Source: a virus. From it: a DNA stretch of 36,364 bases. Location: IMG/VR virus record IMGVR_UViG_3300048836_001233, positions 1 through 36,364 of that record; one strand, written 5' to 3'. The notes below the pieces were generated by a model. That model saw nothing but the letters and a program-made list of their open reading frames with translations. It made no database searches and was not told the DNA's origin. Shown here piece by piece: positions 14,109-35,197 of the stretch. How positions within the stretch are numbered: position 1 is the stretch's first letter; the number at the start of each line of letters is the position of its first letter. The position numbers were made by a program, and so were the translations under genes.

Positions 14109-14219
14109 CTTTAACCTTTTAGCTTTAATTATTGAAGCATCATTTAGTGTAGCTTTAATATTTTTTGCATACCACTATTCAATGCCAGTTTAACTGTATA
14201 TTATCACCTTATTACATTC

Positions 14220-14343
14220 ACATGGCAATTGCACATAACACCCTGCTTGCCGATGTTGCACGACCTTTTGCGTAATGTTGTGAAGGCCAAGCCGATACTC
14301 CGACGCAGCGTTGTAAGCGTTGTTATGCGTAGTTTGCATCAAA
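14220..14343. repeat. attC-like imperfect inverted repeat element
   Basis: An imperfectly palindromic stretch about 105-110 bp long, bounded by CACATAAC near 14226 and GTTGTTATGCG at 14319-14329. These ends are inversely related, as are the core sites of integron attC elements, and the length is in the attC range. About 43 bp of it (14286-14328) recur at 35153-35197 with roughly 85% identity. It lies immediately 3' of the YaaC-like gene, which is where a cassette carries its attC. No integron integrase is in the window, so the call rests on form only. Confidence 0.45.
14323..14340 (+). repeat. Left arm of 18-bp inverted repeat flanking YaaC-like gene
   Basis: TTATGCGTAGTTTGCATC here and, on the other strand at 15418-15401, TTATGCGTAATTTGCATC: 17 of 18 match. 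The arms closely bracket one gene (its stop is 3 nt away, its start 13 nt from the other arm). This would fit cassette boundaries or the ends of a small mobile unit. Confidence 0.7.
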
Positions 14344-15387
14344 TTAAGATCTATGCAACGTACCAGTTGGATAAATCATATGAAACTCTTCAGTTATAAA
14401 ATTAAGAAAATAATTTGGGAATGAACGATTCATCATTGAAAGTGATTTTTTTAACTCCCAATATTTTTCTTTTTTAGAAATAATTTCCAACCAATGTCTA
14501 GGATAATATCTTACAAGGTTACTTGCAATAAATGATATCATATAAAGAATTTCAATCTGATAAAATGGTAATTTTGTTGAATCATTTGCTTCCACAAAAG
14601 GTACTATAAAACTTTCATTATTAAATCGTTTCTCTGGTACAAACTCAGGCAATTCTTCAATATCATCAAATTCAAAAAAAATTGGAAAGCCGGCCATACT
14701 TACAACAAATACATTATGAGTTTGAAATTTTTCAAAATTAAACTTTGCATAATTACTTTTTGCTATTTCGAAAGTCTCTTTTTCTTGTTTTCCATGCAAT
14801 CTTATTGCAATATGAAATTCTTTTTTAATATGTTGATCATCAGCTTTTTTTAGAAAATTAATTTTTGATATTGGCATTGCATTCGAATACCCATAATCAA
14901 ACAAATCAATATTGCTTGATAACAATTCTTTCAAAGAAATAATTTTATTTAAATATAATTCTTTACTTATTGGTCTTGGCAACGATTGTATTAAATAATA
15001 AAATGTTCCTTCTTGAATTCTTACTTTAATGTTTTCTAATCCGATTATTTTTGGATCATCAATCACTATCTGTAATCCATGACCATGCTTTAGTGATTCG
15101 TTATTCAATCGAGTTTGAATTAAAACTAATATTTTACTTAAGGTCGAAAATGAATAGAATTGTAATAATGGTGAAGACTCTATCATTGTATTAGTAGATG
15201 CAATATATAGATCATGGCTTTGTTTTAAATAGTAGTGAAACATCTCATAAGTATCAGGCTTATAACAATAGCTCTTTATTGTATTTAATTTTTCAGGATA
15301 TAGGCAAAGTGGTATCAAATCCCAAAGTTCTTTAATTGGATTCTCATTCATCCAAAGGTTATCTTTAAAATTATAAGTTAAATACAT
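14344..15387 (-). CDS. YaaC-like protein
   Basis: A 347-aa protein resembling the YaaC family (named from a Bacillus subtilis protein of unknown function; relatives occur in many accessory regions). Hallmarks are NPIKELWDLIPLCLY near the start, YYLKQSHDLYIASTNTMIESSPLLQFYSFSTLSK at ~52-84, HGHGLQIV at ~101-108 and, near the end, ISFIASNLVRYYPRHWLEII. It is fully helical in appearance and lacks catalytic motifs. The start follows AAGGA. It is a single-gene unit enclosed by an 18-bp inverted repeat, with an attC-like element downstream. The role is unknown; the setting suggests mobile cargo, possibly defence. Confidence 0.6.
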   Translation of the reverse strand: MYLTYNFKDNLWMNENPIKELWDLIPLCLYPEKLNTIKSYCYKPDTYEMFHYYLKQSHDLYIASTNTMIESSPLLQFYSFSTLSKILVLIQTRLNNESLKHGHGLQIVIDDPKIIGLENIKVRIQEGTFYYLIQSLPRPISKELYLNKIISLKELLSSNIDLFDYGYSNAMPISKINFLKKADDQHIKKEFHIAIRLHGKQEKETFEIAKSNYAKFNFEKFQTHNVFVVSMAGFPIFFEFDDIEELPEFVPEKRFNNESFIVPFVEANDSTKLPFYQIEILYMISFIASNLVRYYPRHWLEIISKKEKYWELKKSLSMMNRSFPNYFLNFITEEFHMIYPTGTLHRS

Positions 15388-15400
15388 AAATTATCCTTAT

Positions 15401-15418
15401 GATGCAAATTACGCATAA
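15401..15418 (-). repeat. Right arm of 18-bp inverted repeat flanking YaaC-like gene
   Basis: The partner of 14323-14340 (17 of 18 bp). It lies 13 nt before the YaaC-like start codon and immediately beside another perfect inverted repeat at 15423-15450. On the minus strand it reads GCGTTATGCG, as at the 3' end of many integron attC sites. Confidence 0.7.
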
Positions 15419-15422
15419 CGCA

Positions 15423-15450
15423 AGTATATACGCAGTACATCGTATATACT
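15423..15450. repeat. Perfect 10-bp inverted repeat, 8-bp spacer
   Basis: AGTATATACG (15423-15432) and CGTATATACT (15441-15450). It lies between the YaaC-like unit and the first late-region promoter. It could be a regulator operator or part of a recombination site. Confidence 0.65.
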
Positions 15451-15457
15451 CAACTGA

Positions 15458-15506
15458 AAGAATGATTGACGAATTTTTGCGCATAGTCTAACTATAAATC
15501 ATTCTT
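15458..15506. promoter_or_regulatory. Promoter enclosed by a perfect 10-bp inverted repeat
   Basis: TTGACG (15466-15471), 17 bp and TAACTA (15489-15494) form a plausible promoter toward the HNH-like gene. AAGAATGATT (15458-15467) and AATCATTCTT (15497-15506) are exact inverted copies placed on either side. AATGATTGAC with a following AATT also occurs at the next promoter (15762-15775), so both may respond to the same factor. Confidence 0.4.
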
Positions 15507-15526
15507 AAAACTCTGCTAAATAAACC

Positions 15527-15766
15527 ATGGACAAGAACATCAATCAAATCTGTGAATTCTGCCGAATCCGGAAATCCGATCACCAGCACCACAAACTCTC
15601 ACAAACAAAACTTTTCCGGAAAATTTATCCGGAATTCATCGATCATCCCGACAATCTACTGCACTACTGTGCAACGTGTCACAACAATAAATCAATAACA
15701 AAATGGTCTGAGAGAGAATTTTGTGAACATTTTAATATAAAAATGCGTAGTAAAAGTGGAAAATGA
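15527..15766 (+). CDS. HNH-like zinc-binding protein near terminase
   Basis: A 79-aa protein with C-x2-C (ICEFC, residues 9-12), an HHK segment (DHQHHKLSQTK, ~19-29) and a second C-x2-C-H (YCATCHN, ~47-53), followed by a basic tail. This is the layout of small HNH endonuclease or HNH-derived zinc domains, often encoded just upstream of phage terminases, where they support DNA packaging. The final HNH histidine is not clearly placed, so catalytic activity is uncertain. No strong ribosome-binding site is seen before the ATG. It is the first gene of the late region. Confidence 0.6.
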   Translation: MDKNINQICEFCRIRKSDHQHHKLSQTKLFRKIYPEFIDHPDNLLHYCATCHNNKSITKWSEREFCEHFNIKMRSKSGK

Positions 15767-15812
15767 TTGACAATTAATTAGCATTTTAGTATTTGCTATA
15801 CAGCTAATTAAT
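15767..15812 (+). promoter_or_regulatory. Candidate late promoter with operator-like inverted repeat
   Basis: TTGACA (15767-15772), a 17-bp spacer and TATTTG (15790-15795), 28 nt before the terminase ATG. A perfect inverted repeat, ATTAATTAGC (15773-15782) and GCTAATTAAT (15803-15812), fills part of the spacer and the start region, a layout suited to repression or activation by a dimer. Confidence 0.5.
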
Positions 15813-15822
15813 CACTTGCACC

Positions 15823-17454
15823 ATGAAAGTCTTTGACACAACTTCTTTCTTAACCCTTGTCGAGCCGGTACTTATCCGGCTTGGCATTCACTCCATTGAT
15901 TTCAAATATGACTACGAAGCTCTATGCAAAGAGCTTAACGAACTTGAAAAGAAAAACTATTCCGGATATTTAAAACAGGTAAGGCAGATTGCAGAGGATG
16001 ATTTTTTCTTCTTTGCCTGGTACGTTTTAGGCTTACCGCTTGAACACCCTTACCTTCTTGCAAGGTGCTATGAAATTCAGGATAACATTGACGAAAAGTA
16101 TTTATATATCTCCGCTGCACGGGATCACTGGAAGTCTGTTCTTAACACAATAGCCTTTCCTATTTGGCAAACCACTCTTGACCCTAACCAGACATTCGCC
16201 ATACTCAGCTTCCAGAGGGATAAATCTCTTGGCCAGCTGATGTCTATTAAACAGATCCTTGAAACAAACCCTCTGCTGCATTTAATCTGGCCGGATATAT
16301 TCTTCGAGAAGAAACAGCAGGCGACTAAATGGAATATATACAGCGGTTTATTTGTCCAGCGTTCAAGCACGGTAAAGGAAGGGACATATACCGCATGGGG
16401 ACTTGTGGAGAACAGCCCTGTATCGAATCACTTTGACTGGTTATTCGTCGATGACCCTGTTACCCTGGACAACTCCGCTTCAACAGAGCAGATCGAAAAG
16501 GTTAAAAAAGCATACCGGATGATGGCCGGTTACGGAACACGAAGGGTAAGAATCCGGACTATAACGACCAGGTACGATGTAAATGACATATCCGCGGATC
16601 TTCTAAAAGATAAGCGATATAAGAAAATAGTTGTCCCTGCCGAAGTTGATATCAATGGCAAGGCTAAACTTGACGGTATCCCTGTATTTAAAACAAGGGA
16701 AGAGCTTGATAATATAAGGCTTGATTTTGGAGATGCTGATTATTGCGCTCAGATGCTGCAGGACCCGACAGCTTCAAGAGAGCGAGGACTCGACCTTGCC
16801 TGGTTGAACTATTACGATGAACTCCCTACAACAATGACAAAATATCTCTTCTGTGATCCTGCAGGGAGTAAAGATAAAACCTCTGACTCAACTGTAATAG
16901 CTATAATCGGCTGCACATTCATGAGACAATTCTTTTTAGTAGATATGATCCGCGACAAGCTTGATGTATATGAACGTTTCCAGATGCTTAAGGAGATGTA
17001 TCAGAAGCATGATCCGTATGACGCTTACTATGAGAAACAGGCTTTAAACTCAGATCTTGAAGTCTTTGAAAGAGAGATGGAGCGCGAGAAGTTCTATTTC
17101 CCCATAGAGAAATTCCAGTCAAACGAAACCGGTGCAAAGAGAAAGCGAATAAAGGCATTCGGCGGACTCCTCCGGAAAAAAGAATTCTTCCTGCCGGAAA
17201 AGATTTATTACACAGACATTACAGATGTTGAAAGAGAACTGATCTCCGAATTCATAAACGAAGAATACACCAAATATCCGCACAATAAAGCTCATGATGA
17301 CATGCTCGACTGCATGGCAATGATTCAGAATGTCGATGTGGTATTCCCCGAAGAAGACACAGAGGAGCAGCCGAAAAAGGTCGAAGGCCGTAAACACCCG
17401 GCATTTATAAAACAGGAGAAAGGGACTTCCTGGCAATCATCCTTTGTATTTTAA
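15823..17454 (+). CDS. Terminase large subunit
   Basis: A 543-aa packaging motor. The ATPase half has a divergent Walker A-like loop (SAARDHWKS, residues ~98-105) and a Walker B strand WLFVDD near 207-212 with a following coupling motif. The nuclease half (RNase H fold) has FCDPAGS near 343, a central acidic region and AHDDMLDCMA near 490. It would cut concatemeric DNA and drive it through the portal encoded 3 nt downstream. The length is normal. It is preceded by a candidate late promoter and an HNH-like gene; the small subunit candidate is, unusually, downstream of the portal. Confidence 0.9.
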   Translation: MKVFDTTSFLTLVEPVLIRLGIHSIDFKYDYEALCKELNELEKKNYSGYLKQVRQIAEDDFFFFAWYVLGLPLEHPYLLARCYEIQDNIDEKYLYISAARDHWKSVLNTIAFPIWQTTLDPNQTFAILSFQRDKSLGQLMSIKQILETNPLLHLIWPDIFFEKKQQATKWNIYSGLFVQRSSTVKEGTYTAWGLVENSPVSNHFDWLFVDDPVTLDNSASTEQIEKVKKAYRMMAGYGTRRVRIRTITTRYDVNDISADLLKDKRYKKIVVPAEVDINGKAKLDGIPVFKTREELDNIRLDFGDADYCAQMLQDPTASRERGLDLAWLNYYDELPTTMTKYLFCDPAGSKDKTSDSTVIAIIGCTFMRQFFLVDMIRDKLDVYERFQMLKEMYQKHDPYDAYYEKQALNSDLEVFEREMEREKFYFPIEKFQSNETGAKRKRIKAFGGLLRKKEFFLPEKIYYTDITDVERELISEFINEEYTKYPHNKAHDDMLDCMAMIQNVDVVFPEEDTEEQPKKVEGRKHPAFIKQEKGTSWQSSFVF

Positions 17455-17456
17455 TC

Positions 17457-19235
17457 ATGAAAGAAAAAGATCTTATTAAAATTATAAATGAAGCTTCAGC
17501 GGAAGCTAAAAGCACATGGCAGCCTCTTTTTGATAACATCGAAAAGGAAAATGATTTCACCGTGGGAAACCAGTGGGAACATGGAGACGCTAAACGGATC
17601 AGAAGTGCCGATGCAATCCCGGTTGTAATCAATATAATCAAGAAACAGGTGGATTCACTCGTGGGAAAACGCCTTGCAACTCTCACTGACCTCAGAGCCT
17701 ATCCGATTGAATTTAACGATGATGTTATTTCCGACATGCTGACCAAAACTCTTAAATGGGTAACAGATTCATGCAACGCTCAAACGACAATAACCTCATC
17801 CCATAAAGACCAGATAATCGGCGGCCTTGGATGGCTGCATACATATATTGATTTCTCTGAGGATTATCTTTCCGGAGATATTAAGATATCTCATGAAGCA
17901 TACAGTAATATACTTCCAGATCCGCACTTTCGTAATCTTGATCTATCCGATGCGGATTATATAATCCGTTACAAGCTCATATCCAAATCAGCGTTAAAAC
18001 TCCAGTTCCCCGATAAAGCCGAAGAAATTGAATCGCTCAAAGGGGATGGAGACTCGATATTTAAATTCAACAAAGTTGACGGCACCCGGAACAGCCGTGT
18101 AGTCGTCAAGGAATACTGGTACAGAACAACTTCCAGGAAGCAGCTGATAGTCAACAAGTACGACACCTCCGACTCCGAAGAATGGGGAGGAGATAAAGAC
18201 CGGCTGAAGGTATTCTTACGGATCAATCCGGATTTCATGCTCGTTGAAAAGAATGTTCAACAGATACGCCTGGCCACACTTGCAGATGGAAAGCTTTTAT
18301 TACAGGATGTTCCAAACCCTTACAGTAAAAAGCCGTATTTCCCGTTTATCCCGATTATCGGCTATTACAATTCAAGCACAAAGGAATGGAAGGATAAGAT
18401 CGCCGGGCACGTCAGGGCACTACTCTTCCCGCAGATGGAAAAGAATGCTCGCAGATCTGCAATGCTCACCGTGACCATGAAGTTCCCACGCATGGCCTGG
18501 AAGATGGAAGAGGGAGCGGTTAAGGATATAAGCGACCTGAAGCGAATGGGTGGTCGTGAGGGAGTTATCGTTCATAGACCGGGGAGAAACCTTGATTTGG
18601 TTACACAAACAGGACTCCCCACCTCCGAGGTTCAGTTAGAGCAGATGTTCAGCAACGATTTAAGCCAGGTAGGACTTGTACCGGAAGTAATCGGTTCACC
18701 GTCAGACCTTTCATCGGCAAAAGCAATGTCACTTGTCCAGGCATCGGGATTAATCCCTGTCGCGGAGTTGAATGAACATCTTAACTTCGCGCTCAGACTG
18801 CTTGGACAGCAGATTATAGATCTCTCACTTGAACACTTTGAAGACAGTAAATTCCAGTTAATATGCGGAGATTCCTTTCAGATTGATCCGGCAATGCTGG
18901 AAAAAGCCCGGAAGAGTACCCGGTTCGATATAAAAGTCGATGAAACAACTCAATCTGTAACCTCACAAATGGCGGCTTATGAATCGATTATGCAGGGTGT
19001 ACAGCACGGTGTCCAAGTTCCATATATCACACAGATAGAACAAAACCCGTACTTACCCTCAGATATAAAAAAGAAGTGCATTGAGCAATACCAGCAGCAG
19101 CAACAGCAGCAGATGGAGGCAGAACAGGCGCAGCAGAGACAACAGACCGAACTTGCACAGCAGCAGATGGCAATGCAGCATCAGCAGGCCATGGCTAAAA
19201 TACAGAGCTCTCAGCATGTACAGGGAGGTATGTAA
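17457..19235 (+). CDS. Portal protein (P22-like)
   Basis: A 592-aa portal of the P22 type, forming the dodecameric vertex for DNA passage. Characteristic stretches are NDFTVGNQW near the start, RSADAIPVVINIIKKQVDSLVG (~50-72), ILPDPHFRNLDLSDADYIIR (~145-165) and GLPTSEVQLEQMFSNDLSQVGLVPEVIGSPSD (~380-411). The C-terminal ~50 residues are almost pure Gln-rich coil (poly-Q with QQMA repeats), reminiscent of the long helical barrel of P22-type portals. Its stop overlaps the next start (TAATG). Confidence 0.9.
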   Translation: MKEKDLIKIINEASAEAKSTWQPLFDNIEKENDFTVGNQWEHGDAKRIRSADAIPVVINIIKKQVDSLVGKRLATLTDLRAYPIEFNDDVISDMLTKTLKWVTDSCNAQTTITSSHKDQIIGGLGWLHTYIDFSEDYLSGDIKISHEAYSNILPDPHFRNLDLSDADYIIRYKLISKSALKLQFPDKAEEIESLKGDGDSIFKFNKVDGTRNSRVVVKEYWYRTTSRKQLIVNKYDTSDSEEWGGDKDRLKVFLRINPDFMLVEKNVQQIRLATLADGKLLLQDVPNPYSKKPYFPFIPIIGYYNSSTKEWKDKIAGHVRALLFPQMEKNARRSAMLTVTMKFPRMAWKMEEGAVKDISDLKRMGGREGVIVHRPGRNLDLVTQTGLPTSEVQLEQMFSNDLSQVGLVPEVIGSPSDLSSAKAMSLVQASGLIPVAELNEHLNFALRLLGQQIIDLSLEHFEDSKFQLICGDSFQIDPAMLEKARKSTRFDIKVDETTQSVTSQMAAYESIMQGVQHGVQVPYITQIEQNPYLPSDIKKKCIEQYQQQQQQQMEAEQAQQRQQTELAQQQMAMQHQQAMAKIQSSQHVQGGM

Positions 19236-19687
19236 TGTCAAGACCTCTTACAATGAAGTTTGAAGATTTAAAAGGTAAGAAGTTTCCAATCATTGGTGAT
19301 GAATCAGAATTCGAACTCGATTGGAAAGAAACCCTGGAGCACATGGGGAAAGAAGGAGCAAGCGCGGCCGGATTATATACCTCAATAAGACTGACAAAGA
19401 GAATCCACGACAGGTTATATGCGGATACTGAAGAGTATCGGGATGTATTCGATTACGCCACCGATCTATCCAAGACCTACTGGATCGATACCATGGGTAA
19501 GAAGATCTTCAAGGATAGAAACCTTAACAGTGCGATCTACGCAATCCAGGTGAGAAACCGTTTCGGATGGAAACAGCAGGATGACCAAAAGCCGGCACCT
19601 CCTCCCAAAGAACCGGAACAGCCGGGAGTTGACTTAATCGCAAAGCATAAAAAGCCAAAACCGGAAATAGAGCAAACAACAAACTGA
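19235..19687 (+). CDS. Possible terminase small subunit / packaging protein
   Basis: A 150-aa protein. The segment ITKRIHDRLYADTEEYRDVFDYA-type helix (~45-75), then WIDTMGKKIFKDRNLNSAIYAIQVRNRFGWKQ (~87-116) resembles phage small terminase proteins, which bind pac DNA and end in a fold with an RFGW-like signature. A Pro/Lys-rich tail follows. It overlaps the portal stop (TAATG), an unusual place; small terminase is normally upstream of the large one. Alternatively it is a head completion protein. No HTH is obvious. Confidence 0.5.
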   Translation: MSRPLTMKFEDLKGKKFPIIGDESEFELDWKETLEHMGKEGASAAGLYTSIRLTKRIHDRLYADTEEYRDVFDYATDLSKTYWIDTMGKKIFKDRNLNSAIYAIQVRNRFGWKQQDDQKPAPPPKEPEQPGVDLIAKHKKPKPEIEQTTN

Positions 19688-19701
19688 AAAGGTGAAATTA
19701 T

Positions 19702-20433
19702 ATGTCGGATGAATATCAGGAAACGGTAGAAGAAGAACAGGCGACTACGGCCATTGATAAAGAAGGCTCCTCTGTTGATGAGGGGATTGAACAAAGTATA
19801 GATAACGAAGAGATACAGAGCGACATACCGGACGCTCCGCAGGGAAAATATGTACCTCTTGAAGTAGTGGAATCTATGCGCGAACAGGCAAGAGAACTGA
19901 AAGCACACAATGAACAGCTTTTGCAGCTTATGTTGTCAAATCAAAGACAGCAGCCGCAGGAACAACAGAAACAGGAAGAGCAGTTCCAGTTTGCAGATGA
20001 TGACTTTCTCACAGGGGCACAGCTCAAAGCGGTACTTGCACAACAGCAGGAAAAGTCAAATCAGCAGCAGCAGGCTTTTCAGGATCAGCAGAGAGAGGCG
20101 TATATCGCTGAACAGAAGCAAGTCTATATGAGCCAGTACCCCGATTACAATGATGTTATCGGTGCTGTAAATGCGGAAGCTCAGAAAGACCCTGCCATGG
20201 CAGAGATTATCATGCGGACAAAAAATCCCGTAGAGACGGCTTACAGATTCGGGAAACTACTCAGAGGTGAAAGCATTGGCGAGGTGAAAACCGTTAAAGA
20301 AAAAGTCTCCCAGGAGAACAAGATTAAACAGAATCTTGCGCAGGCAAGAACACTAAGTACCGTCAAAGGAACAGCGGTAAAGACCGAAGAAGATGACTTT
20401 GACGCACTCTACAACAAAATTAAAGGATACTAA
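19702..20433 (+). CDS. Capsid scaffolding protein
   Basis: A 243-aa acidic, Gln-rich, mostly helical protein directly upstream of the major capsid gene. Residues 1-50 are strongly acidic (EYQETVEEEQATTAIDKEG), ~55-75 form a coiled-coil helix (VVESMREQARELKAHNEQLL) and ~76-140 are Gln-rich. The C-terminal part has mixed charge (VKTVKEKVSQENKIKQN) and ends in DFDALYNKIKGY. No catalytic serine of a prohead protease is visible. Composition and position are typical of scaffolds that template procapsid assembly and then leave. Confidence 0.75.
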   Translation: MSDEYQETVEEEQATTAIDKEGSSVDEGIEQSIDNEEIQSDIPDAPQGKYVPLEVVESMREQARELKAHNEQLLQLMLSNQRQQPQEQQKQEEQFQFADDDFLTGAQLKAVLAQQQEKSNQQQQAFQDQQREAYIAEQKQVYMSQYPDYNDVIGAVNAEAQKDPAMAEIIMRTKNPVETAYRFGKLLRGESIGEVKTVKEKVSQENKIKQNLAQARTLSTVKGTAVKTEEDDFDALYNKIKGY

Positions 20434-20446
20434 AAGGTAAAAGAAT

Positions 20447-21433
20447 ATGCCGGATAACATTGTAACAATAGCGGATATGAAGAATCCGAATGAATTTTTT
20501 CAAAAGGTTCTTCTTCGAAGAATCAAATACGATTCTGTCTTTGAACAGTTCGCTCTTAAAGGAAAAGTCGAAGGGATGGAATTTGTAAGCTGGTTCAGGG
20601 TAAACAGACTTAATCCCGGTACACCAACACAACTTGGCGATACCAACCCCTCACCTCTTCAGATTACAACCGACAAGATCACCGGACAGGTGGGATGGTA
20701 TGGAGCATACGCGAAGATCGGTCGCAAAGCCAAGAAGATTGACCCGGTAAAGGCAACCACCGAATACACGGAAGTTGTGGGAGACCATGGCAGAGAAACC
20801 CGTGAGATGATTATGAGAGATTCAATAATCTCCGGTGCAACCTCTGTATATTACGCCGGTGCAGTAGCCGGAAGAGCGAACGTCAGCGGAGTATTTGCCA
20901 ATGCGGATTTGAAAAGGATCTTCAAGGGACTTGAAAAACAGGGAGCAGAAAAGATCACAGAGATTGTTGTCGGTGCGGCTAAAGACGGTACACGCCCGGT
21001 TGAAGCCTGTTATATAATGATAGTCGATTCAGACCAGGCACTTGATGTAAGAGCCCTCACCGGATTTACAAAATGCGCTGACTATTCAGATCCTTCCGTA
21101 AGATTTAAGAATGAATTCGGAGCTTGCGAAGGTTTCAGATTCATTTCTTCAAACTTTATGACAGGCGTAATTGTACCTGGTGCCGGTTCAACTACCGTGG
21201 CGGGAAAAATATCAACAAACACCACAAACTGTGATGTTTACAGAGGGATTGCTCTTGGAAAGGAAGCCTTCGGAATTGCAGATCTTGAAACAATGGAATC
21301 AATCCTGAAGACAGAAAATGAGATCGGCGGTCCTCTAAACATGTTCGCTACTACCGGGTATATAATGGCCATGACTTCAAAGGCTCTTAATCCTCAGTGG
21401 TTCACAATTTACGAAACAGCAGCAAGCGTTTAA
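20447..21433 (+). CDS. Major capsid protein (N4-gp56-like)
   Basis: A 328-aa protein whose start and body match N4-gp56 family major capsid proteins (HK97 fold): FFQKVLLRRIKYDSVFEQFA, then GKVEGMEFVSWFRVNRLNPGTPTQLGD, GWYGAYAKIGRKAKKIDPVK and EACYIMIVDSDQALDVRALTGFTK. A C-terminal beta region has IADLETMESILKTENEIGGPL. It lies 13 nt after the scaffold. A hairpin follows its stop (21441-21464). The combination of an N4-gp56-like coat with a P22-like portal is a mosaic. Confidence 0.85.
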   Translation: MPDNIVTIADMKNPNEFFQKVLLRRIKYDSVFEQFALKGKVEGMEFVSWFRVNRLNPGTPTQLGDTNPSPLQITTDKITGQVGWYGAYAKIGRKAKKIDPVKATTEYTEVVGDHGRETREMIMRDSIISGATSVYYAGAVAGRANVSGVFANADLKRIFKGLEKQGAEKITEIVVGAAKDGTRPVEACYIMIVDSDQALDVRALTGFTKCADYSDPSVRFKNEFGACEGFRFISSNFMTGVIVPGAGSTTVAGKISTNTTNCDVYRGIALGKEAFGIADLETMESILKTENEIGGPLNMFATTGYIMAMTSKALNPQWFTIYETAASV

Positions 21434-21440
21434 GCAAAAT

Positions 21441-21464
21441 AGCGGAGGTGTAAAAACTTCCGCT
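21441..21464 (+). terminator. Hairpin after the capsid gene
   Basis: AGCGGAGG (21441-21448) pairs with CTTCCGCT (21457-21464), 8 bp with one G-U, closing an 8-nt loop, 8 nt after the capsid stop. No U-run follows, so it is more likely to stabilise or process the very abundant capsid mRNA than to terminate it fully. Confidence 0.4.
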
Positions 21465-21483
21465 TAATCAAATCAATAGGACA

Positions 21484-21783
21484 ATGGATATGGAAAAATA
21501 TACTCACTCAGACACCAAAAACGGAACAGGCGTGGCAATGTCATTTAATTGCGGCTTCAGACCTAAGTATGTAAAAGCCATGAATGTCGGTCCCGGGCTT
21601 TCCAGCCTGGAAGCGACAGACTTAATGGCTGCAGGATCGGGATTCAAGGAAATTTCAACAGGTGTTAAATCCTTTATCTCAACCGGAGGAATTACAATTA
21701 CAGATTACGGTTTTATTCTCGGAGCGGATGCAAACGTGAATATAGCCGGTCAGGCAATTCATGTAGTTGCTCATAGAATGTAA
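21484..21783 (+). CDS. Small capsid-decoration-like protein
   Basis: A 99-aa, beta-rich protein. The core reads CGFRPKYVKAMNVGPG, then MAAGSGFKEISTGVKSF and GITITDYGFILGADANVNIAGQ, with an end AIHVVAHR. Beta strands alternate with turns, as in small head-decoration or spike-type proteins placed just after the capsid gene. An in-frame second ATG at 21490 is an equally possible start, since only a weak AGG lies upstream. A specific role is inferred from position. Confidence 0.55.
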   Translation: MDMEKYTHSDTKNGTGVAMSFNCGFRPKYVKAMNVGPGLSSLEATDLMAAGSGFKEISTGVKSFISTGGITITDYGFILGADANVNIAGQAIHVVAHRM

Positions 21784-21791
21784 AGAAGATC

Positions 21792-21807
21792 CTCCGGGAA
21801 ACCGGAG
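21792..21807 (+). terminator. GNRA-tetraloop hairpin between head genes
   Basis: CTCCGG (21792-21797), loop GAAA and CCGGAG (21802-21807): a perfect 6-bp stem with a stable GNRA loop, no U-run after it. It lies between two small head genes. Probably an RNA stability or partial termination signal that sets transcript levels after the capsid. Confidence 0.4.
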
Positions 21808-21836
21808 AGATAAATCAATAGTAGAGGGATAATATT

Positions 21837-22136
21837 ATGGCAGAAGATAAGCCAGTCAAAGAAGTTAAAGCAGCAAAGGAAGTTAAAAAATACAGAGTCA
21901 TTGGAAAAGAACCGGGTGCTTCAATGAACGGAGTTATTACATGCTTTATCAACGGCATAAAATATAACATTAATGAGAATGAACCGGTAGAGCTCAATGA
22001 TGCAGTTCTTTCATATCTCAAAGATGCAAGAGTAACCATTCATAAAGAGACCGGAGCGGAAGCCGATGACGCTGTAAATATAGAACAGGGCTTTATGATA
22101 AACGTCAAAAAGAAATTCGAAGTTCTGGAAGTCTAG
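21837..22136 (+). CDS. 99-aa hypothetical head protein
   Basis: Starts after AGAGGGATAATATT. A Lys/Glu-rich N-terminus (MAEDKPVKEVKAAKEVKK) precedes a likely beta domain with GVITCFINGIKYNINENEPVELNDAVLSYLKDA, a pattern common in small phage head proteins adjacent to connector genes. No catalytic feature. Function not recognised. Confidence 0.6.
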   Translation: MAEDKPVKEVKAAKEVKKYRVIGKEPGASMNGVITCFINGIKYNINENEPVELNDAVLSYLKDARVTIHKETGAEADDAVNIEQGFMINVKKKFEVLEV

Positions 22137-22140
22137 GTAA

Positions 22141-22683
22141 ATGACGTTTGCACAGATATACGATGCAGTCTGCAACCTGGTATATGGGGATGTAACAGCC
22201 TCCCCTGTACCGGCGGCAGAAGTGCCCTTTATTCAGATCCTTATTCTTCAGAAACATCATGAAGTTCAGCAGAACTATAACTTCTGGTTTAACAGAGTCC
22301 GGACAACATTTGATCTGATTGCAGGGGTAGATACTTATGCACTACCAGAAAACTATAAAGAACTGATCAGCATTGATTATGAAGGATCAGCTGAATTTGT
22401 AAATAACGATATAGTTTTCACTGAGACTCCGACAGAAGACAAAACCGTGCAATTCGATCTTTGGAAATTCCTCCCTTCTCCTCTTGTATGGAACGGAACT
22501 TTTGCAGATAATGTTACGCTGTATTGCCACATGGGGATTATCTACATGGTTACTGCAATTATGATGCTGAAGAGAGACGAAAAGGCCGCTGCAGGATCAT
22601 ATCTGGAAATCGCGAATCAATCACTGGAATCTGTATATGCGGAAGATTACGGACGAAGACAATCACCGGGAGCGATTTTTTAA
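22141..22683 (+). CDS. Head-to-tail adaptor/connector protein (gp4/gp6-like)
   Basis: A 180-aa, mostly helical protein resembling podovirus adaptor proteins that close the portal after packaging. It opens with TFAQIYDAVCNLVYGDV and contains QILILQKHHEVQQNYNFWF, then RTTFDLIAGVDTYALPENYKELISIDYEG, a sequence pattern common in this class, and a C-terminal helix MLKRDEKAAAGSYLEIANQSLESVY. It lies 4 nt after the previous gene and directly before the lysis cassette. Confidence 0.65.
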   Translation: MTFAQIYDAVCNLVYGDVTASPVPAAEVPFIQILILQKHHEVQQNYNFWFNRVRTTFDLIAGVDTYALPENYKELISIDYEGSAEFVNNDIVFTETPTEDKTVQFDLWKFLPSPLVWNGTFADNVTLYCHMGIIYMVTAIMMLKRDEKAAAGSYLEIANQSLESVYAEDYGRRQSPGAIF

Positions 22684-23458: not shown

Positions 23459-23459
23459 T

Positions 23460-23908: not shown

Positions 23909-23914
23909 AGAATT

Positions 23915-25208: not shown

Positions 25209-25210
25209 TA

Positions 25211-27853: not shown

Positions 27854-27864
27854 GAGGTAGTTTT

Positions 27865-28413
27865 ATGGGATTTATGGACTCACTTTTTGGCGGGACAGAA
27901 CAGGCATCAACACAGACTCGAGAGCAGAGAGCATTACTAAAGCAGCAGGCTGCACTGCAGCAGCAGTCTAATGCACAGGCATACTCTACACTGAACGGTA
28001 TAGCAAGTAATCCTGACAATGCATATGAATATAATGCAGATAACGGAGCAGCAGCTTTTAAAGCAGGTGTCATAAATCCTGCGCTGCAGCAGCTTAATCA
28101 GCAAATAGGAAATAATCAACATAGTTCAATGCTGCACAGTTCAGCTAATATGTACGGACAGAATCAACTCAAACAGAACACTATGAATAATCTTAATAAT
28201 TTGCAATACCAGGACAATCTGCAGCAACAGCAGATGAAACAGCAGGGAAAGACCGACGCATACAGCAGACAGTTGCAGTCTTTAGGTCAGCTTATGGGCG
28301 GTAATGCTTCAGTGCTCGGGACTCAGGCGGTATCTTTACAGAAAAAACCCGGAATAATTGACGGTATAACTGCCGCGACAGGAGCTGCGAGCGGTATTAT
28401 GAGCTTAATGTAA
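27865..28413 (+). CDS. Gln-rich internal virion / ejection protein
   Basis: A 182-aa protein with GAGG as ribosome-binding site. It begins MGFMDSLFGG and is very rich in Gln and Asn (LLKQQAALQQQSNAQAYS; LQYQDNLQQQQMKQQG). A short hydrophobic C-terminus (IDGITAATGAASGIMSLM) could insert in a membrane. Size, composition and place before two large proteins fit the smallest of the three ejection proteins of P22-type phages, injected with the DNA to build a channel across the envelope. Confidence 0.6.
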   Translation: MGFMDSLFGGTEQASTQTREQRALLKQQAALQQQSNAQAYSTLNGIASNPDNAYEYNADNGAAAFKAGVINPALQQLNQQIGNNQHSSMLHSSANMYGQNQLKQNTMNNLNNLQYQDNLQQQQMKQQGKTDAYSRQLQSLGQLMGGNASVLGTQAVSLQKKPGIIDGITAATGAASGIMSLM

Positions 28414-28429
28414 CAGGAGACATGACAGC

Positions 28430-29665
28430 ATGGCACAATATATAGACACCGTTTCATCTACATTACAAAACTTCAATGACTCCATGCGCAGCCTGCAGGA
28501 CATGAAGAGAAATACGATTGCTCAAAAGTTGCAGCTTGCTGATCTGCTGAACAGACAAGGTAAGAATCTTGAAGCGGAAAAGGCTTTAAAAGGGGCACAG
28601 AGTTACGGTCTGTCATCACTGTTTGCAGATGCACCAAAAGAATGGCAAGCTCAGAATCCGTTTTCTCAAAAAGATATGCAGATAAAGAGTTTACAATCGC
28701 TCAAGGATGTACCGACAAACGCATCTCAAGATCAAGGCGCGATACTGGCTGACTTGAAAGTAACAAATCCCGATATGTATAATTTTATGATTAAACAGGA
28801 AGCGGATAAAAAGGCCGAAAGTTTACTTGAATCCACAAGTCCAGACAACAACTCATCGGGGAATATACTCCCGTATGATACACATGTAAACGCATCCGAT
28901 AAACAGTTAACAAGTCAGTCTTCGGAGTTCGAGAAACTTCGAAGTTTGTACAAACAATCAGTGCAGGAACGTGAAAGGATAAATGCTCCGATAATTCAGG
29001 CGAACAATGAAGCTACAGCATACAACAAACAGGCCGAAGTTTTTAATAAAAACAATGTAAAGTCATTCGGCGGTAATGAAGTAGACCAGCAACAGGGATT
29101 GATAAAGAATACACTCTCCGCGGTTAAAAATGGCGGCGGTATGGATGCTTATATGAAATACCTTGCAACTACTAAAGCCATTGATGATCACTACCAGCAT
29201 AACAATAAAGCACTCCCCCCTGAATACTTCGGATTAGGTGGAAAAGGAAAAGGTGGAGGTACTTCCGACCAGTATCTTTACGGGGACTCCGAACAGGTTA
29301 TTGATATCCCCAAATCCGAGATGTCAACATCGGCAAAAAGAGAAGCATATATTCAGAAAATGTACCCTGACATATACGCAAAAGGAACGATCCTCAAGAA
29401 AGCCGGAACAAACTCCGGTGAAACTCTCAATCCGCTGCAGAAGGAACAGCTTAAAGCATCCGCTAATGAAAATGATATGATGTTCAAAGCCGCTGCAGCC
29501 CAGGCATGGAATGAAGCTGATCCTGATGGGGTAAATATATTCAACAAAAAAGAGAGAGCTGAGCTTGCGAACAGATCATTACCCTCAGACAATCCGTATA
29601 AGTTTGACGAGAATGGAAACATAGTCAGAGGTAACGGTAATGTCGCTGTTAAGCCCTGGAAGTAA
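28430..29665 (+). CDS. Internal virion / ejection protein, medium
   Basis: A 411-aa protein starting after AGGAGA. A helical N-terminus (NFNDSMRSLQDMKRNTIAQKLQLADLLN) is followed by a Ser/Asn/Asp-rich linker, a long helical middle (~160-260), a Gly/Lys-rich loop near 270 and a Asn/Gly-rich end. There are no membrane segments or catalytic motifs. It lies between the Gln-rich and the 1393-aa proteins, the middle slot of the ejection set. Function is inferred from order only. Confidence 0.55.
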   Translation: MAQYIDTVSSTLQNFNDSMRSLQDMKRNTIAQKLQLADLLNRQGKNLEAEKALKGAQSYGLSSLFADAPKEWQAQNPFSQKDMQIKSLQSLKDVPTNASQDQGAILADLKVTNPDMYNFMIKQEADKKAESLLESTSPDNNSSGNILPYDTHVNASDKQLTSQSSEFEKLRSLYKQSVQERERINAPIIQANNEATAYNKQAEVFNKNNVKSFGGNEVDQQQGLIKNTLSAVKNGGGMDAYMKYLATTKAIDDHYQHNNKALPPEYFGLGGKGKGGGTSDQYLYGDSEQVIDIPKSEMSTSAKREAYIQKMYPDIYAKGTILKKAGTNSGETLNPLQKEQLKASANENDMMFKAAAAQAWNEADPDGVNIFNKKERAELANRSLPSDNPYKFDENGNIVRGNGNVAVKPWK

Positions 29666-29668
29666 TCT

Positions 29669-32600
29669 ATGAAATGGGAAGAAGTTATAAAGAATCCGGA
29701 TTATCAGAAGCTTTCAGTTCCAGAAAAGCAGCAGTGGAGAAAGGAATATTTTGATGATATAGTAAAGCCTCAGATAAAACCGGAACAATACGACTCCTCA
29801 TGGAACGAGTTTACCGCTGATGCCGATAAAATGGAAGCTGTTAAATCTCAGCCATCATACGCAATACCCGGAGCAGATAGAAAACCGGCATTTTCTGACA
29901 TTGACCCTAAAATATTATCCGACATGATTAAACGCGGAGAGCGCGACAAGGGCTTTTCTGCTGCAATGAATAAAGGGCGATATAACTCAACTACTGCATC
30001 ACTAACAGAGGCTTATAATCTCCATGATAAATCAGTGGAAGGAATAAAGAAGGTTCGGGAGGAGAACTGGCAACCGGAAACAAGATCTGAAAAAATCGGG
30101 AATAATATTGGTGCAATAGTCGCCGACCTTCCTCTTTATGCTGCAGGAGGAGTAATTGGAGGACCAGGAGGCGCATTCGCCCTACCGGCAGCACTCCGCA
30201 AACTTGCAGAAGAGAAAGAGAAATCCGGCGGTAAAATAAATCTTGATATGAAGGGTGTTGACTCAGCGGTTGCAATCGCAAAGGAGATACCGAAAGAATG
30301 GATAAAAGGAGAATTGCTCGGACTTGCCGGGAAGACAGGAGGTGTAGTTGCTGATAAGCTTGGTAGAGGCATACTTGCAAAGGCAGCTGGTGATGTTGCC
30401 GCTCTTCCTGTAGAAACAGCAGCACTGCTTGGAGCTGATAAGGTTTTAAACAATACTTCAATTACAGCGGATACAATCCTTGAAACACTCGGTACTGTCG
30501 GAGTATTAAAATTCTCAGGAGCATTTCCCGGAGCGGTAAAAACCGCATGGGATACAGCATTAAGCAAAGGAATTCCCGCCGAAAAAATTGCTGAAAATCT
30601 GAAGAATGAAAAAGTCGGAACAATGCAGGACGAAATATCCGGAAAGGAAGCTATAGATCGTGCAGTCGTAATGACCGAAAAACAGATCGAAGCTGAAAGA
30701 GTCTCCCGGATCCAGAATGAAATAATCGATAAACAGATTCTCTCAAACTATAAAGACGGTAAAGCACCTGAACAGATCATAAAGCTTAATCAGATCCCGA
30801 AAGAGTACAGATCATATATCCTGGATCAAACCGAAACCGGAGGGTGGAGGTTTAAGCCGGAAGTGTTGGAGGAAGTGAACAATAGAATCAACACCAAAGA
30901 CCCATTTACAGCAGCGCGCTATGAAGATGTACTCCCCTCACCACTCAGAGATATGACCGCAAGAGAAGGTCAAAGACTTGCGGATGAACATGTCAAAAAG
31001 AAAACAGAACTTACAATGGCAAAAGCAAATCTTGAACAGTTTGAAGCACAGAAGCAATCTCTACATGAATCATATATGAAAGATGAAGTAAATAATCTCC
31101 TGGGTAATTACCGCAGATTTGAGAGATCCGGCGCGGCGCGTGACAAGATGGATCAGGTAATAGACTATGCTAAATCTGTAATGACACAGGAAGAGCAGAT
31201 AAGAGTGGCAAATGAACCATCCGCTCTCATGGATCATATCGACATTAAAGAATCCGGATATTCAGAATTAAAACCGACATACCAGGACGCAGTTAAAAAA
31301 GAGATTATCGCAGAGCTGCAGATGAAAACCGGATATATCCCCCGGAACGTCATGGAGTCAGCGTTAAGAGTAGCGGACAATAGAACTGCAAAAGAGGGAA
31401 AACCATACGAGAAGGCAGTCAAAGATCTTGAACATGGAATAAAAGCGATATCGGAACATCCCGATTACCAGGCACACATCAAGAGAAATATCGAGAAATC
31501 ACCATATAGAATACAGGAAGAACTTAAACCAAAACTTGCAGATATTAATACTCAGATTGAAAAGATGAAAGAATCTCACCGTGTTAATTATCAGAAAGCA
31601 ATGGGTGAATCTGAATCATTCGGAGAGATGAATCGAAGCAATGCAGAATATTTCGGGAAAGATCACATGGACGGCATGATGGAGTTTGCAGTCAAAACAC
31701 CGGAAGAGCTTGCAGCAAACTTTGAGAAAGCTAATTTCATGGATAAAGAGTTTAAGCAGAAAGGATGGTCTCCGGACATGCTTAAAAACAAGGCCAGGGT
31801 AATTGCCTCAGTCCTTGGAGATAAAGTTTACAGAAATTTTGTTATACCACTCAGACAAGCTGAACATAATTTCGTAGTTGAGAGCCAGAAATACAAAGAC
31901 TGGATAAAGGAACAAACAAAACAGTTCACACCAAAAGAAAGACATGAACTCGGTGTACACTTCAGCGCACAGATGGAACAGGGAAAAATGACACTTGATG
32001 CAATGAACGCACGATTAAAAGAGAAACACATCTCTAAAGATTTTCCAAAATGGAGTGCGGAAAAACAGAACGAATATATACGGAAGCTTGACATCAAACT
32101 GAAAGATAAATACTTAATCCCGAAAACATTTGAAGAGCTCTCTCCGAAACAGCAAGAAGCAGTAATTGAGATCCGCAAAATTCAGTCCGTAATGTTTGAA
32201 AGAATAAATGCAGCCAGGGCAGAATCCGGTCTTGACCCTCTTACAAAAGTTGAGGATTACTTTACATTCATTCGCAAATTCAGCACACTTGAAGAGCTTG
32301 GATATGATCCCATGAAGGTCAGTGCCGAACAATTTGAATCGACTAAAATTTCTGACTTCAAAACTCGTGGTCTTGCATATCAATTCGGGAAAGAAAGGGT
32401 AAACAGTGTAAGGGATATAGAGACAGATGCGTTCCATGTTCTTGACAAGTATCTCACAAGCACCCTCAGAACGGTTCACATGACCCCGGTTATTGGTAAG
32501 CTCAGAGCCGGTCTTGATATTAATGACAAAATGGCATTAACCAATCCGAACGCTCACCAATATTTGCACGATACACTTGATTATGTATCCGGAAAGAAGA

Positions 32601-33850
32601 TATCAGAATCATCCGCGAGGATGAACAATATGGCCAATTGGGTGAATCACAATTTAGGTGTTTTTATCCTGACATATAACTTTAATTCCGCCATCATACA
32701 GCCCACGGCGGTGGTTAATACAATCGGACTACTTGGTCCTAAAGCGGTCGGCAGAGGGCTTGCAGATTTCAAAAGTTCCGCTATGCGTGATTTTGCCATG
32801 GAGAAAAGCAAGGTATTAAAAGCCAGAATGCACGATGTCACAATCGAAGAGATGACGAAAGGTTTTCATGGAGCAGTCGGCAAACTCAAAGGGAAAGCCG
32901 CGGACTTCGGCACCCTCCCCTTGCGATATCTTGACCTTAAAACAGCACAGATAACATGGCTATCCGGCTTCAGATATGGCCAGGATATCCTTAAACTCAC
33001 AGACCGGGAAGCGGTTTTATTCGCCGATGATACAGTTATAAGCTCTCAAGGGTCAGCAGCTCGAATAGACCTTGCACCGGCTCAGCATACCCCTCTGGGT
33101 AAGTCGCTAACCCTGTTTAATACATTTGTGATAAATAATCTCAACTTCCTCACTACCGACATTACTGGAATCACTAAAACCAATAGGCTTGTTTCTGAAG
33201 GTGTAACAAAAAACACCTCAATCGGTGAAAGGCAATTCATCCGGATGACTGGTAAGAACGAATACAACGTATACGAGAAAGGAAAACAGCACAGTACCAG
33301 GGAGGGACTTGAAAAACTTGTAACATTGGCAGCTGCAGGATTTATCGCCAATACCATGTATGAGCTTGCAGGATTAAAAGCCCCGACAATAGCCCCTGTC
33401 TCAGCAGCATACGAAGGTTTTACCGGGCAGTCATGGGTGGATGCAATGAAAGGTGAACAACCAGATAATAATGAAGGTCAGCTCATGGGAGCTCTTGCAG
33501 GAACATTAAGAGAGTTCGCAAGCATTGTTCCTATTGCCGGAGGATCCCCGCGATACGGCGGCGATTCAGTAGCCGGAGCAGTTGGTGGTCTTGTAGTTGA
33601 AACAATGAACTCAATGGCAGGGAAACCGGGTAGTAAACCATGGTGGTATTTAGCGAGCAAATGGATGGGAGTACCGGGAGGTCAGCAAGTGTGGAAAATT
33701 GCAAAATACCTATCCCGAGAAGAAAAGTCAGATGAAAAAGATGCAAGAAAATCAGCGCACCCGGTCGAATCGATGAAACGGGAGATACACAAAAACAATC
33801 CGTACTTTCAGCAAAGAAAAGAAATGAGAAAGCAGATGAGGAGATCCTAA
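29669..33850 (+). CDS. Large ejection / internal virion protein (1393 aa)
   Basis: The largest gene of the window. Residues ~145-180 form a Gly/Ala-rich hydrophobic patch (AAGGVIGGPGGAFALPAAL), possibly membrane active; ~220-290 is Ala/Val-rich helical; ~400-850 is a long charged helical region with coiled-coil segments. A later part (~980-1160) has TYNFNSAIIQPTAVVNTIG and APAQHTPLGKSLTLFNTFVINNLNFL, recalling the large polyvalent-type domains in phage giant internal proteins. No transglycosylase motif was seen. It probably forms the injected conduit through the envelope, as the largest ejection protein does in P22-type phages. The end is Ser/Gly/Pro-rich and then basic. Confidence 0.55.
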   Translation: MKWEEVIKNPDYQKLSVPEKQQWRKEYFDDIVKPQIKPEQYDSSWNEFTADADKMEAVKSQPSYAIPGADRKPAFSDIDPKILSDMIKRGERDKGFSAAMNKGRYNSTTASLTEAYNLHDKSVEGIKKVREENWQPETRSEKIGNNIGAIVADLPLYAAGGVIGGPGGAFALPAALRKLAEEKEKSGGKINLDMKGVDSAVAIAKEIPKEWIKGELLGLAGKTGGVVADKLGRGILAKAAGDVAALPVETAALLGADKVLNNTSITADTILETLGTVGVLKFSGAFPGAVKTAWDTALSKGIPAEKIAENLKNEKVGTMQDEISGKEAIDRAVVMTEKQIEAERVSRIQNEIIDKQILSNYKDGKAPEQIIKLNQIPKEYRSYILDQTETGGWRFKPEVLEEVNNRINTKDPFTAARYEDVLPSPLRDMTAREGQRLADEHVKKKTELTMAKANLEQFEAQKQSLHESYMKDEVNNLLGNYRRFERSGAARDKMDQVIDYAKSVMTQEEQIRVANEPSALMDHIDIKESGYSELKPTYQDAVKKEIIAELQMKTGYIPRNVMESALRVADNRTAKEGKPYEKAVKDLEHGIKAISEHPDYQAHIKRNIEKSPYRIQEELKPKLADINTQIEKMKESHRVNYQKAMGESESFGEMNRSNAEYFGKDHMDGMMEFAVKTPEELAANFEKANFMDKEFKQKGWSPDMLKNKARVIASVLGDKVYRNFVIPLRQAEHNFVVESQKYKDWIKEQTKQFTPKERHELGVHFSAQMEQGKMTLDAMNARLKEKHISKDFPKWSAEKQNEYIRKLDIKLKDKYLIPKTFEELSPKQQEAVIEIRKIQSVMFERINAARAESGLDPLTKVEDYFTFIRKFSTLEELGYDPMKVSAEQFESTKISDFKTRGLAYQFGKERVNSVRDIETDAFHVLDKYLTSTLRTVHMTPVIGKLRAGLDINDKMALTNPNAHQYLHDTLDYVSGKKISESSARMNNMANWVNHNLGVFILTYNFNSAIIQPTAVVNTIGLLGPKAVGRGLADFKSSAMRDFAMEKSKVLKARMHDVTIEEMTKGFHGAVGKLKGKAADFGTLPLRYLDLKTAQITWLSGFRYGQDILKLTDREAVLFADDTVISSQGSAARIDLAPAQHTPLGKSLTLFNTFVINNLNFLTTDITGITKTNRLVSEGVTKNTSIGERQFIRMTGKNEYNVYEKGKQHSTREGLEKLVTLAAAGFIANTMYELAGLKAPTIAPVSAAYEGFTGQSWVDAMKGEQPDNNEGQLMGALAGTLREFASIVPIAGGSPRYGGDSVAGAVGGLVVETMNSMAGKPGSKPWWYLASKWMGVPGGQQVWKIAKYLSREEKSDEKDARKSAHPVESMKREIHKNNPYFQQRKEMRKQMRRS

Positions 33851-33852
33851 AA

Positions 33853-34650
33853 ATGCAGACAGATATAAAACAAAACCTTGCAATAGCAATCCAGGCTAAA
33901 TTCAACATACCGGAATTCCTGATCCTGGACACATTCACAGAGCAGAAAAGACTAGAAATCGAAATGTCACCGAATTACGAAGTCAAAGATGGAATTGCAA
34001 TTCAAGTTTCGGACATAGACATCGACCAAGTGTTTTATATTCGTGACGGAGAATTCCACTACCCGACATTATTCATTAATGACAGGCACTTACTCTCCGG
34101 AAGACAGGGAGGAATTTTACCGTCAAATCTTGTAACCGCATTTCCCGGACAAATTATAAAGAAGAATCAATTAACCGCGCTTCAGCGCATAATTCCGGAT
34201 CATTCAGGATACATTACCATCTCTTTATCCCTGATAGATGGTAAACTATACTTCAAGGATCTCCTCTTAGGTATAATACCGGACTATATCCCTCACCTTC
34301 AGGCACTACACAACGAACCAGACCCGGCCTGGTTCCATCATAACCTTGAGGATATGAAGCTAGAGCCGCAAAAAGGAATGTCGGCAAGCTGCAGACTCTT
34401 CACCTACCCTTATGGAGAAGGGAATCGCCAAATAATCGAGCAGTTCCCGGATATAGATGTAATCCTTACCGGAGATTGTTACATAACTTTGAAGCATTCA
34501 CAGAAGCCCCACATTAAAGACTTATGGATTGATCTATATAAATCACTTTCTGATCCATATTACGTTCATAACGGTCTTGTATTCAATCCGGATGGAGGAA
34601 TTAAGGCAAGGAAGGTCTATAATTCTATAAAAAAGGCACATCTTTTGTGA
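33853..34650 (+). CDS. 265-aa protein at end of late operon, weakly ATP-grasp-like
   Basis: Starts after GAGGAGATCC, 3 nt past the large protein. Alpha/beta in appearance: QVSDIDIDQVFYIRDGEFHY, then FINDRHLLSGRQGGILPSNL, then HSGYITISLSLIDGKLYFKDLLLG. The pattern of a glycine-rich SGRQGG turn followed by a GYITISLSLIDGKLYFKDL strand pair faintly resembles the PurD/ATP-grasp C-terminal half, a similarity I cannot test here. It might instead be a tailspike assembly or virion protein. It is the last gene of the late operon. Confidence 0.4.
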   Translation: MQTDIKQNLAIAIQAKFNIPEFLILDTFTEQKRLEIEMSPNYEVKDGIAIQVSDIDIDQVFYIRDGEFHYPTLFINDRHLLSGRQGGILPSNLVTAFPGQIIKKNQLTALQRIIPDHSGYITISLSLIDGKLYFKDLLLGIIPDYIPHLQALHNEPDPAWFHHNLEDMKLEPQKGMSASCRLFTYPYGEGNRQIIEQFPDIDVILTGDCYITLKHSQKPHIKDLWIDLYKSLSDPYYVHNGLVFNPDGGIKARKVYNSIKKAHLL

Positions 34651-34709
34651 AATCAGATTCGGGGAGACATTATATTTTGACTTTGAACATCGAATTTAAT
34701 AATCTAATT

Positions 34710-34715
34710 TATAAT
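34710..34715 (+). promoter_or_regulatory. Possible promoter -10 for the response regulator
   Basis: TATAAT, followed by ACTG, 34 nt before the start codon. No consensus -35 lies at the right distance (TTGAAC is 21 bp upstream), so the promoter is uncertain. It marks the transition from the phage late operon to flanking DNA. Confidence 0.35.
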
Positions 34716-34748
34716 ACTGTTGGATGAAACCTAAATGTGGAAGATATT

Positions 34749-35108
34749 ATGCCAAAATTATTAATTGTAGAAGATGATGAACATCTAAGAGAGCTATACA
34801 AAGAGGAACTAACTGATGAAGGTTATGAAATTGCTATTGCTTCTAATGGTCTTGAAGCCATAGAGATAATTAAAAAAGAATGGGTTGATCTTATAATAAT
34901 GGACATAAGTATGCCTGAAATGGACGGAATAGTGACTCTTGGGAAACTAATTGCAGATGAAAGAAAAATACCAGTGATAATTTACACAGCTTACTCAAAT
35001 TACAAAAGTAATTTTATGACCTGGACTGCTGCTGCTTATCTAACAAAGTCATCCAATCTCGATGAACTTAAAAAGAAGATTAATAATCTTCTTGCTCGAC
35101 AAAAATAA
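34749..35108 (+). CDS. REC-only (CheY-like) response regulator
   Basis: A 119-aa receiver domain with no output domain. Key residues are all present: the acidic pair E8/D9/D10, phospho-acceptor D52 (LIIMD), T80 and K100, on the MPKLLIVEDDEHLRELYKEE fold. It would be phosphorylated by a histidine kinase and act by protein contact. I use the ATG at 34749 with GGAAG before it; a GTG at 34737 is also in frame. Probably a host gene and so evidence that the prophage ends between 34650 and here, though phage capture is not excluded. Confidence 0.85.
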   Translation: MPKLLIVEDDEHLRELYKEELTDEGYEIAIASNGLEAIEIIKKEWVDLIIMDISMPEMDGIVTLGKLIADERKIPVIIYTAYSNYKSNFMTWTAAAYLTKSSNLDELKKKINNLLARQK

Positions 35109-35152
35109 AAATATGGTAAACTACGGTTTATATAAAATTAAATTGTCCGCAA

Positions 35153-35197
35153 GCCAAGCCAGCACTCCGTCGCAGCGTTGTAAACGTTGTTATATGA
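35153..35197. repeat. Half attC-like element, copy of 14286-14328
   Basis: About 43 bp that share roughly 85% identity with the repeat beside the YaaC-like gene, in the same orientation: both contain CGCAGCGTTGTAA, then CGTTGTTAT. The other half of the element is missing here. It lies 3' of a minus-strand gene (35262-35615), as at the first copy. Confidence 0.6.

Follow-up and report, generated by a model that had tools for sequence, protein, structure and literature searches.

Features of the Phage Locus

The window (the whole stretch of DNA analysed) is an IMG/VR virus record of 36,364 bases without flanking host DNA, and the search of its own genome covered this window only. The features below are predicted from the sequence; R1 is the covariance model of attC sites described in the next section.

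1-1092, minus strand: phage tyrosine integrase (PF00589, E 2e-27)
12966-12978, minus strand: attC stub ending cassette B, TAAAGCTTATACG, recognized by eye against the start of the R1 attC, CAAAGCTTATACG, and missed by the model
12979-14238, minus strand: probable cassette B, with a gene (13203-14108) without a family match; starts with G|TTATGTGC at the attC R' box
14232-14329, minus strand: full-length attC between cassettes A and B, which holds repeat copy 1 (R1, 43.6 bits)
14323-15418, minus strand: complete gene cassette A, ends complementary at 18/19 nt
14344-15387, minus strand: gene of cassette A, YaaC-like protein of 347 aa (PF14175, E 3.7e-24)
15419-15494, minus strand: attI-like site of the phage, crossover G at 15419, resembling the host attI L179
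35153-35196, minus strand: repeat copy 2, an attC reduced to its 5' (R''-L'') half (R1, 10.1 bits)
35262-35615, minus strand: gene ending at copy 2 (by position and strand), without a Pfam match

The YaaC-like gene belongs to a variable slot between a ninB-like gene (ending at 6362) and the HNH gene (15527) with the terminase genes; a type IIG restriction-modification protein and other genes are found in the same slot. Compared with a CALIN, an integrase-less cluster of two or more neighbouring attCs, the window has one full attC site, the 13-nt stub and the distant half site, and no IntI is encoded there. The phage tyrosine integrase was ruled out as an integron integrase (TIGR02249, 56.5 bits against a cut-off of 265).

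Close relatives, as judged by the terminase, comprise three viral contigs (L003, L004 and L005, 73-78%) and two genomes, both from Spirochaetota: HGW-Spirochaetae-5 (L084 in genome G001, 83%) and UBA5763 (L085 in genome G002), the contig of the latter matching L005 throughout. Gene order is conserved between the window phage and its relatives. Judging by the related prophages, the host would be a spirochaete. The slot of L084 holds a related large protein and a TIR-domain-like gene (by eye) and shows no clear attCs, and that of L005 holds two methyltransferase-like genes (by eye). Type IIG-like restriction-modification proteins occur in one cargo slot of two related prophages (window 8137-10962, a strong PADLOC match; L084:3755-6511).

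Identity of the Repeat

An earlier sequence-only reading of this DNA had reported a pair of segments, about 85% identical and in equal orientation, each at the 3' end of a minus-strand gene. Both points hold: the copies at 14286-14326 and 35153-35193 match at 36 of 41 positions (88%), and one of them lies 3' of each of the genes 14344-15387 and 35262-35615. A 22-nt core, searched through the whole window with up to three mismatches, is found at no third place, and dinucleotide shuffles of the window gave 0 occurrences, that is, none by chance. Exact scans of the viral and genome collections with a 23-nt core returned no match; further attC patterns matched only L005 among the viral contigs searched. 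A tRNA or an Rfam RNA was ruled out as the identity of the repeat, neither search giving a match there.

R1 was built from 18 full sites in genomes of the spirochaete order, the window being left out; one of the 18 is the attC of the G001 prophage (L111:9672-9770). In the aligned sites, 12 of the 25 stem pairs are altered on both sides, a value reached in 0 of 500 shuffles, and compensatory cells number 42 against 11 ± 3 in shuffles. In the window, R1 matches 14232-14329 (minus strand) at 43.6 bits (E 7.7e-10) over model positions 1-100 of 100, which confirms the attC-like nature earlier ascribed to the segment. Copy 1, aligned to R1 over its whole length, has the paired arms R''-L'' and L'-R' and both outer triplets, AAC and GTT (GCATAAC ... 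GTTATGT), and copy 2 has AAC only. The extent first given to the repeat was only partly right: the pair is real, while copy 1 belongs to the larger full site and copy 2 amounts to half a site. By this comparison, the segment shared by the two copies corresponds to the R''-L'' half of an attC such as those of spirochaete cassette arrays, and its identity can be regarded as established.

The L' arm of copy 1 is partly degenerate and direct folding is no better than shuffles, so the attC identity of this copy rests on homology. A home-made scanner for AAC/GTT stems could not separate known attCs from shuffles, and the covariance model was used instead.

With a full-length attC as the query, 18 sites were found in G001 and 5 in G002, and at least one match in 16 of the 46 genomes of the order. 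The search for further copies that the sequence-only reading had proposed thus gave, in the genomes of relatives, up to 18 per genome, tied to gene ends, and its suggestion that the phage has cassettes in common with host-type arrays is borne out.

Cassettes and attI-like Sites of the Phages

On the minus strand cassette A starts with G|TTATGCGTAATTTGCATCA and ends with TGATGCAAACTACGCATAA|C; these ends are complementary at 18 of 19 nt, the sole mismatch being position 10. A gene with its attC, bounded by G|TT crossover points, is found both here (14323-15418) and in the sister phage L005 (7553-8411), where the cassette occupies the equivalent slot and shows the same ends and the same position 10. 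Cassette structure and the slot shared with the sister phage are thereby regarded as established from the comparison of the two phages. The end of cassette B is complementary to its start at 14 of 18 nt, the best place in the window, with chance places reaching 13. As read from these boundaries, the window belongs to a spirochaete phage that carries one or more complete cassettes along with fragments of further ones.

The attI-like site comprises the 75 nt that precede cassette A, upstream of the phage HNH gene. Against the host attI L179, 15419-15494 scores 42 (0 of 300 shuffles; 14 hosts compared, p uncorrected). The two attI-like sites of L005 are similar to L194 and L179 and to each other (14 hosts compared for each, p uncorrected). 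The attI-like similarity is likewise taken as established at this level. The attI sequences of the two known hosts (L159 and L173) are not the closest to the site of the window, and a candidate attI of L004 gave no match to the 14 host attI. The left end of L005 (79-183; 408-500) has a further weak attC (23.5 bits) and the second attI-like site.

In L004 (1527-3484), three cassettes carry genes on the plus strand, opposite to the polarity of the R1 attC (minus). Their position-10 letters are reversed, which agrees with the placement of the attC on the minus strand by R1.

Copy 2 and the Right End

Homology of copy 2 to attC ends at about 35150, and the gene 35262-35615 is probably the gene of a broken cassette. 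Copy 2 had been placed in the right flank of the prophage. This placement is not shown by the record, which has no flanks, and the G001 sister prophage has an attC (L111:9672-9770) inside its right end, between the last late gene and attR; by analogy with that prophage, copy 2 is probably inside the right accessory region of the phage. A direct repeat of 77 bp (91%) that covers the 3' end of a tRNA-Pro gene marks both limits of the sister prophage (~40 kb; L110:8495-8567, L111:15228-15304). This prophage thus occupies a tRNA gene, and the proposal that the prophage sits inside a cassette array is not upheld.

In this phage family, genes for two-component signalling are found repeatedly towards the right end (window 34737-35108; L111:9970-11634; L113:13402-13767), and the response regulator of the window shares 78% identity with a chromosomal one of G001 (L112:1610-1960) outside the prophage. 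Similar small exported-looking genes are present twice in one prophage (L111:9234-9662 and L084:7295-7735), one of them directly adjoining an attC.

Cassette Ends in Host Arrays

For comparison, 21 host cassettes were cut mechanically between consecutive R1 matches. Their starts and ends are generally complementary at positions 1-8 and 11-18, but position 10 is matched in 10%. Long arms are present in 15 of the 21, 13 of these 15 reading A in the start and G in the complemented end; pairings of starts and ends from different cassettes reach the same threshold in 4.8%. Nine class 1 cassettes, taken as a control, are complementary over 6-11 nt and match at position 10 in 67%; at positions 11-18 they match at 3.0 of 8, whereas the spirochaete cassettes reach about 6 of 8. 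Cassettes of this spirochaete order are thus characterized, as far as their sequences go, by ends that are complementary over ~18 nt save for a constant A/G mismatch at position 10, and host arrays with the attC and ends found in the phage are established to the same degree. This position-10 mismatch would appear as A·C on the top strand and as a T·G wobble on the bottom strand, which may aid strand choice.

Recombinases beside Host Arrays

Profile TIGR02249 detected a canonical IntI over the cut-off in 2 of the 46 genomes of the order. The search for an integron integrase suggested earlier, run on G001 and G002, gave no canonical IntI over the cut-off. Many other TIGR02249 matches, about 355-390 aa long, have no counterpart of profile positions ~180-230. 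When aligned to the canonical IntIs of G007 and G008, both of which have I2, 22 of 22 recombinases examined have no I2 stretch. The host arrays are therefore not canonical integrons, which possess an integrase with the I2 helix. In an alignment of fifteen recombinases of one subgroup, a HARP domain was detected in eight at E < 0.01, and that of L160 exceeds the Pfam cut-off (26.2 bits). The best sequence relatives of these HARP-Xer proteins among solved structures are XerA / XerC-like (PDB 4a8e, 5hxy). No prior description of a HARP domain joined to a tyrosine recombinase was found in the literature covered, which excludes most subscription journals and preprints, and a prior description is possible.

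Downstream of the stop codons, a repeated-motif tract followed by G|TT[A/G] was seen by eye in 14 of 18 cases, which places an attI next to the integrase gene, as expected of wide-sense integrons. In four contigs the sequence breaks off 88-96 nt past the recombinase stop, at or just beyond the G|TT point, as expected if the first cassette varies within the population. The other wide-sense element, attC-bearing cassettes beside the integrase, is present in L159, L160 and L194. L160 contains, in order, the recombinase, attI, a methyltransferase-like cassette (ends 20/21 complementary) and attC; L159 contains the recombinase, attI, several cassettes and attC beside rpmH-rnpA-yidD-yidC (by eye). 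The presence of I2-less recombinases beside arrays is thus established in sequence terms. A second I2-less subgroup without HARP (L161:4346-5179, L188:5786-7000) has attCs on the divergent side, like classical integrons.

R1 matches occur at 6 of 26 I2-less recombinase loci and at 0 of 20 XerC/D-like control loci (p 0.025), where four of the six positive loci (L159-L162) had been picked for nearby attCs and fed the model, L188 and L194 alone being independent, and where many contigs end beside the gene, so that most of the 26 loci give no verdict on arrays. All 11 genomes with strong attCs encode an I2-less recombinase, while 29 of the full set of 46 do so (p 0.003). Both tests are post hoc, use related genomes and depend on genome classes assigned by hand; they support a link between recombinase and attC and do not prove it.

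Origin of the Phage Cassettes

The phage likely carries an integrase-less integron platform in its cargo slot, which was probably filled via a host integron recombinase. A host recombinase supplied in trans would recombine the phage's attI-like site with an attC folded from a single strand, and the cassette would enter there; copy 2 would be the broken attC of another cassette near the right end. Since the phage encodes no integron recombinase of its own, the enzyme would most likely be the HARP-Xer recombinase that adjoins the arrays of related hosts. We infer both the recombination and its enzyme, as well as any benefit that the cassettes may bring to the phage or the host. This reading draws on the R1 match with the window excluded, on the covariation of the stem and on the ends of cassette A, which are like those of host cassettes and unlike class 1. 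It draws equally on the cassette in the equivalent slot of L005, the attC inside the G001 prophage and the attI-like similarity, as well as on the gene order of L160 and L159, the lack of a canonical IntI in G001 and G002 and the phage integrase not being an IntI. Counted against it are the degenerate L' arm and the folding of copy 1, the attI of L159 and L173 not being the closest, the polarity of L004 and its lack of an attI-like site, the indirect assignment of the host, and the post hoc nature of the association between recombinase and attC among related genomes.

Fragments of host arrays could instead have been captured by illegitimate or homologous recombination, the attCs being passive and no integron recombinase acting on the phage. 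Two of the sites, copy 2 and the stub of cassette B, are indeed broken, the slot of L084 is occupied without clear attCs, and similar capture has been suggested for other phages (Qi et al. 2023, PMC9892861). However, cassette A is whole and its G|TT boundaries are exact, and L005 has at the equivalent place a different complete cassette starting at an attI-like sequence; passive capture is judged unlikely. Somewhat less probable still is the movement of cassettes by a canonical IntI with the I2 helix, as in Treponema, with the HARP-Xer genes as bystanders. Such an IntI does exist in 2 of the 46 genomes, and metagenome-assembled genomes may be incomplete; but none exceeds the cut-off in G001, in G002 or in 44 of the 46 genomes, the sequence around both IntIs has no R1-type attC (both lie near contig ends), and the attI tract and cassettes directly follow the HARP-Xer genes.

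The late genes are flanked by two copies in equal orientation, which could also be the phage's own recombination sites, excising or inverting 21 kb. This is highly improbable: copy 2 has no L'/R' half, a 41-nt stretch at 88% identity offers little for homologous recombination to act on, and host arrays hold many more copies, all of them associated with gene ends. The excision of the 21 kb between the copies, proposed in the sequence-only reading, is not borne out either, since two working attCs would be required and copy 2 (10.1 bits) is a half site.

Comparison with Known Integrons

Phage-borne attC sites are already known: phages with attC sites and CALINs, methyltransferase cassettes included, have been described, and IntI1 was shown to act on five of the six phage attCs assayed (Qi et al. 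2023, PMC9892861). Those phages resemble the present one in that attCs and cassettes occur with no integrase; methyltransferase cassettes are present in some of them, as they are in the sister phage L005, and one prophage has attCs at its ends. They differ in their hosts. In the present phage the cassettes follow an attI-like site and the attC is of the spirochaete-array type, and the arrays lie beside I2-less recombinases.

In the chromosomal integrons of Treponema, also in spirochaete hosts, intI is transcribed toward attI (Wu et al. 2013, PMC3607928) and in the cassette direction, as here. The Treponema integrases were placed in the intI tree, whereas the recombinases described here have no I2 stretch and carry a HARP-like domain; the IntI of G008 (410 aa, a Treponema-like length) has I2. 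Class 1 integrons share the G|TT crossover, the R''/R' boxes and one attC per cassette, but the complementarity of their ends covers 6-11 nt with no fixed position-10 mismatch, and IntI1 has I2. XerA / XerC-like recombinases share a catalytic domain without I2, whereas HARP-Xer proteins have an extra N-terminal HARP-like domain, with an attI tract and cassettes adjoining the gene. I2 has been reported as necessary for cassette capture, present in no other protein and absent from Xer proteins (eLife 2020, PMC7790495).

On balance, the data lean towards a second kind of integron in Spirochaetota. Its integrase would be of the Xer type with an N-terminal HARP-like domain and no I2, and the ends of its cassettes would be complementary over ~18 nt except for one fixed mismatch, 10 nt from the crossover, that could favour bottom-strand folding; phages would carry attI and cassettes, the host enzyme acting in trans. 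If true, arrays served by an I2-less recombinase would represent either a second solution to single-strand recombination or a pre-I2 state, and the origin of integrons would become testable. The fixed mismatch at position 10 offers a specific, testable structural rule, and the link with phages would provide a route for such cassettes between hosts.
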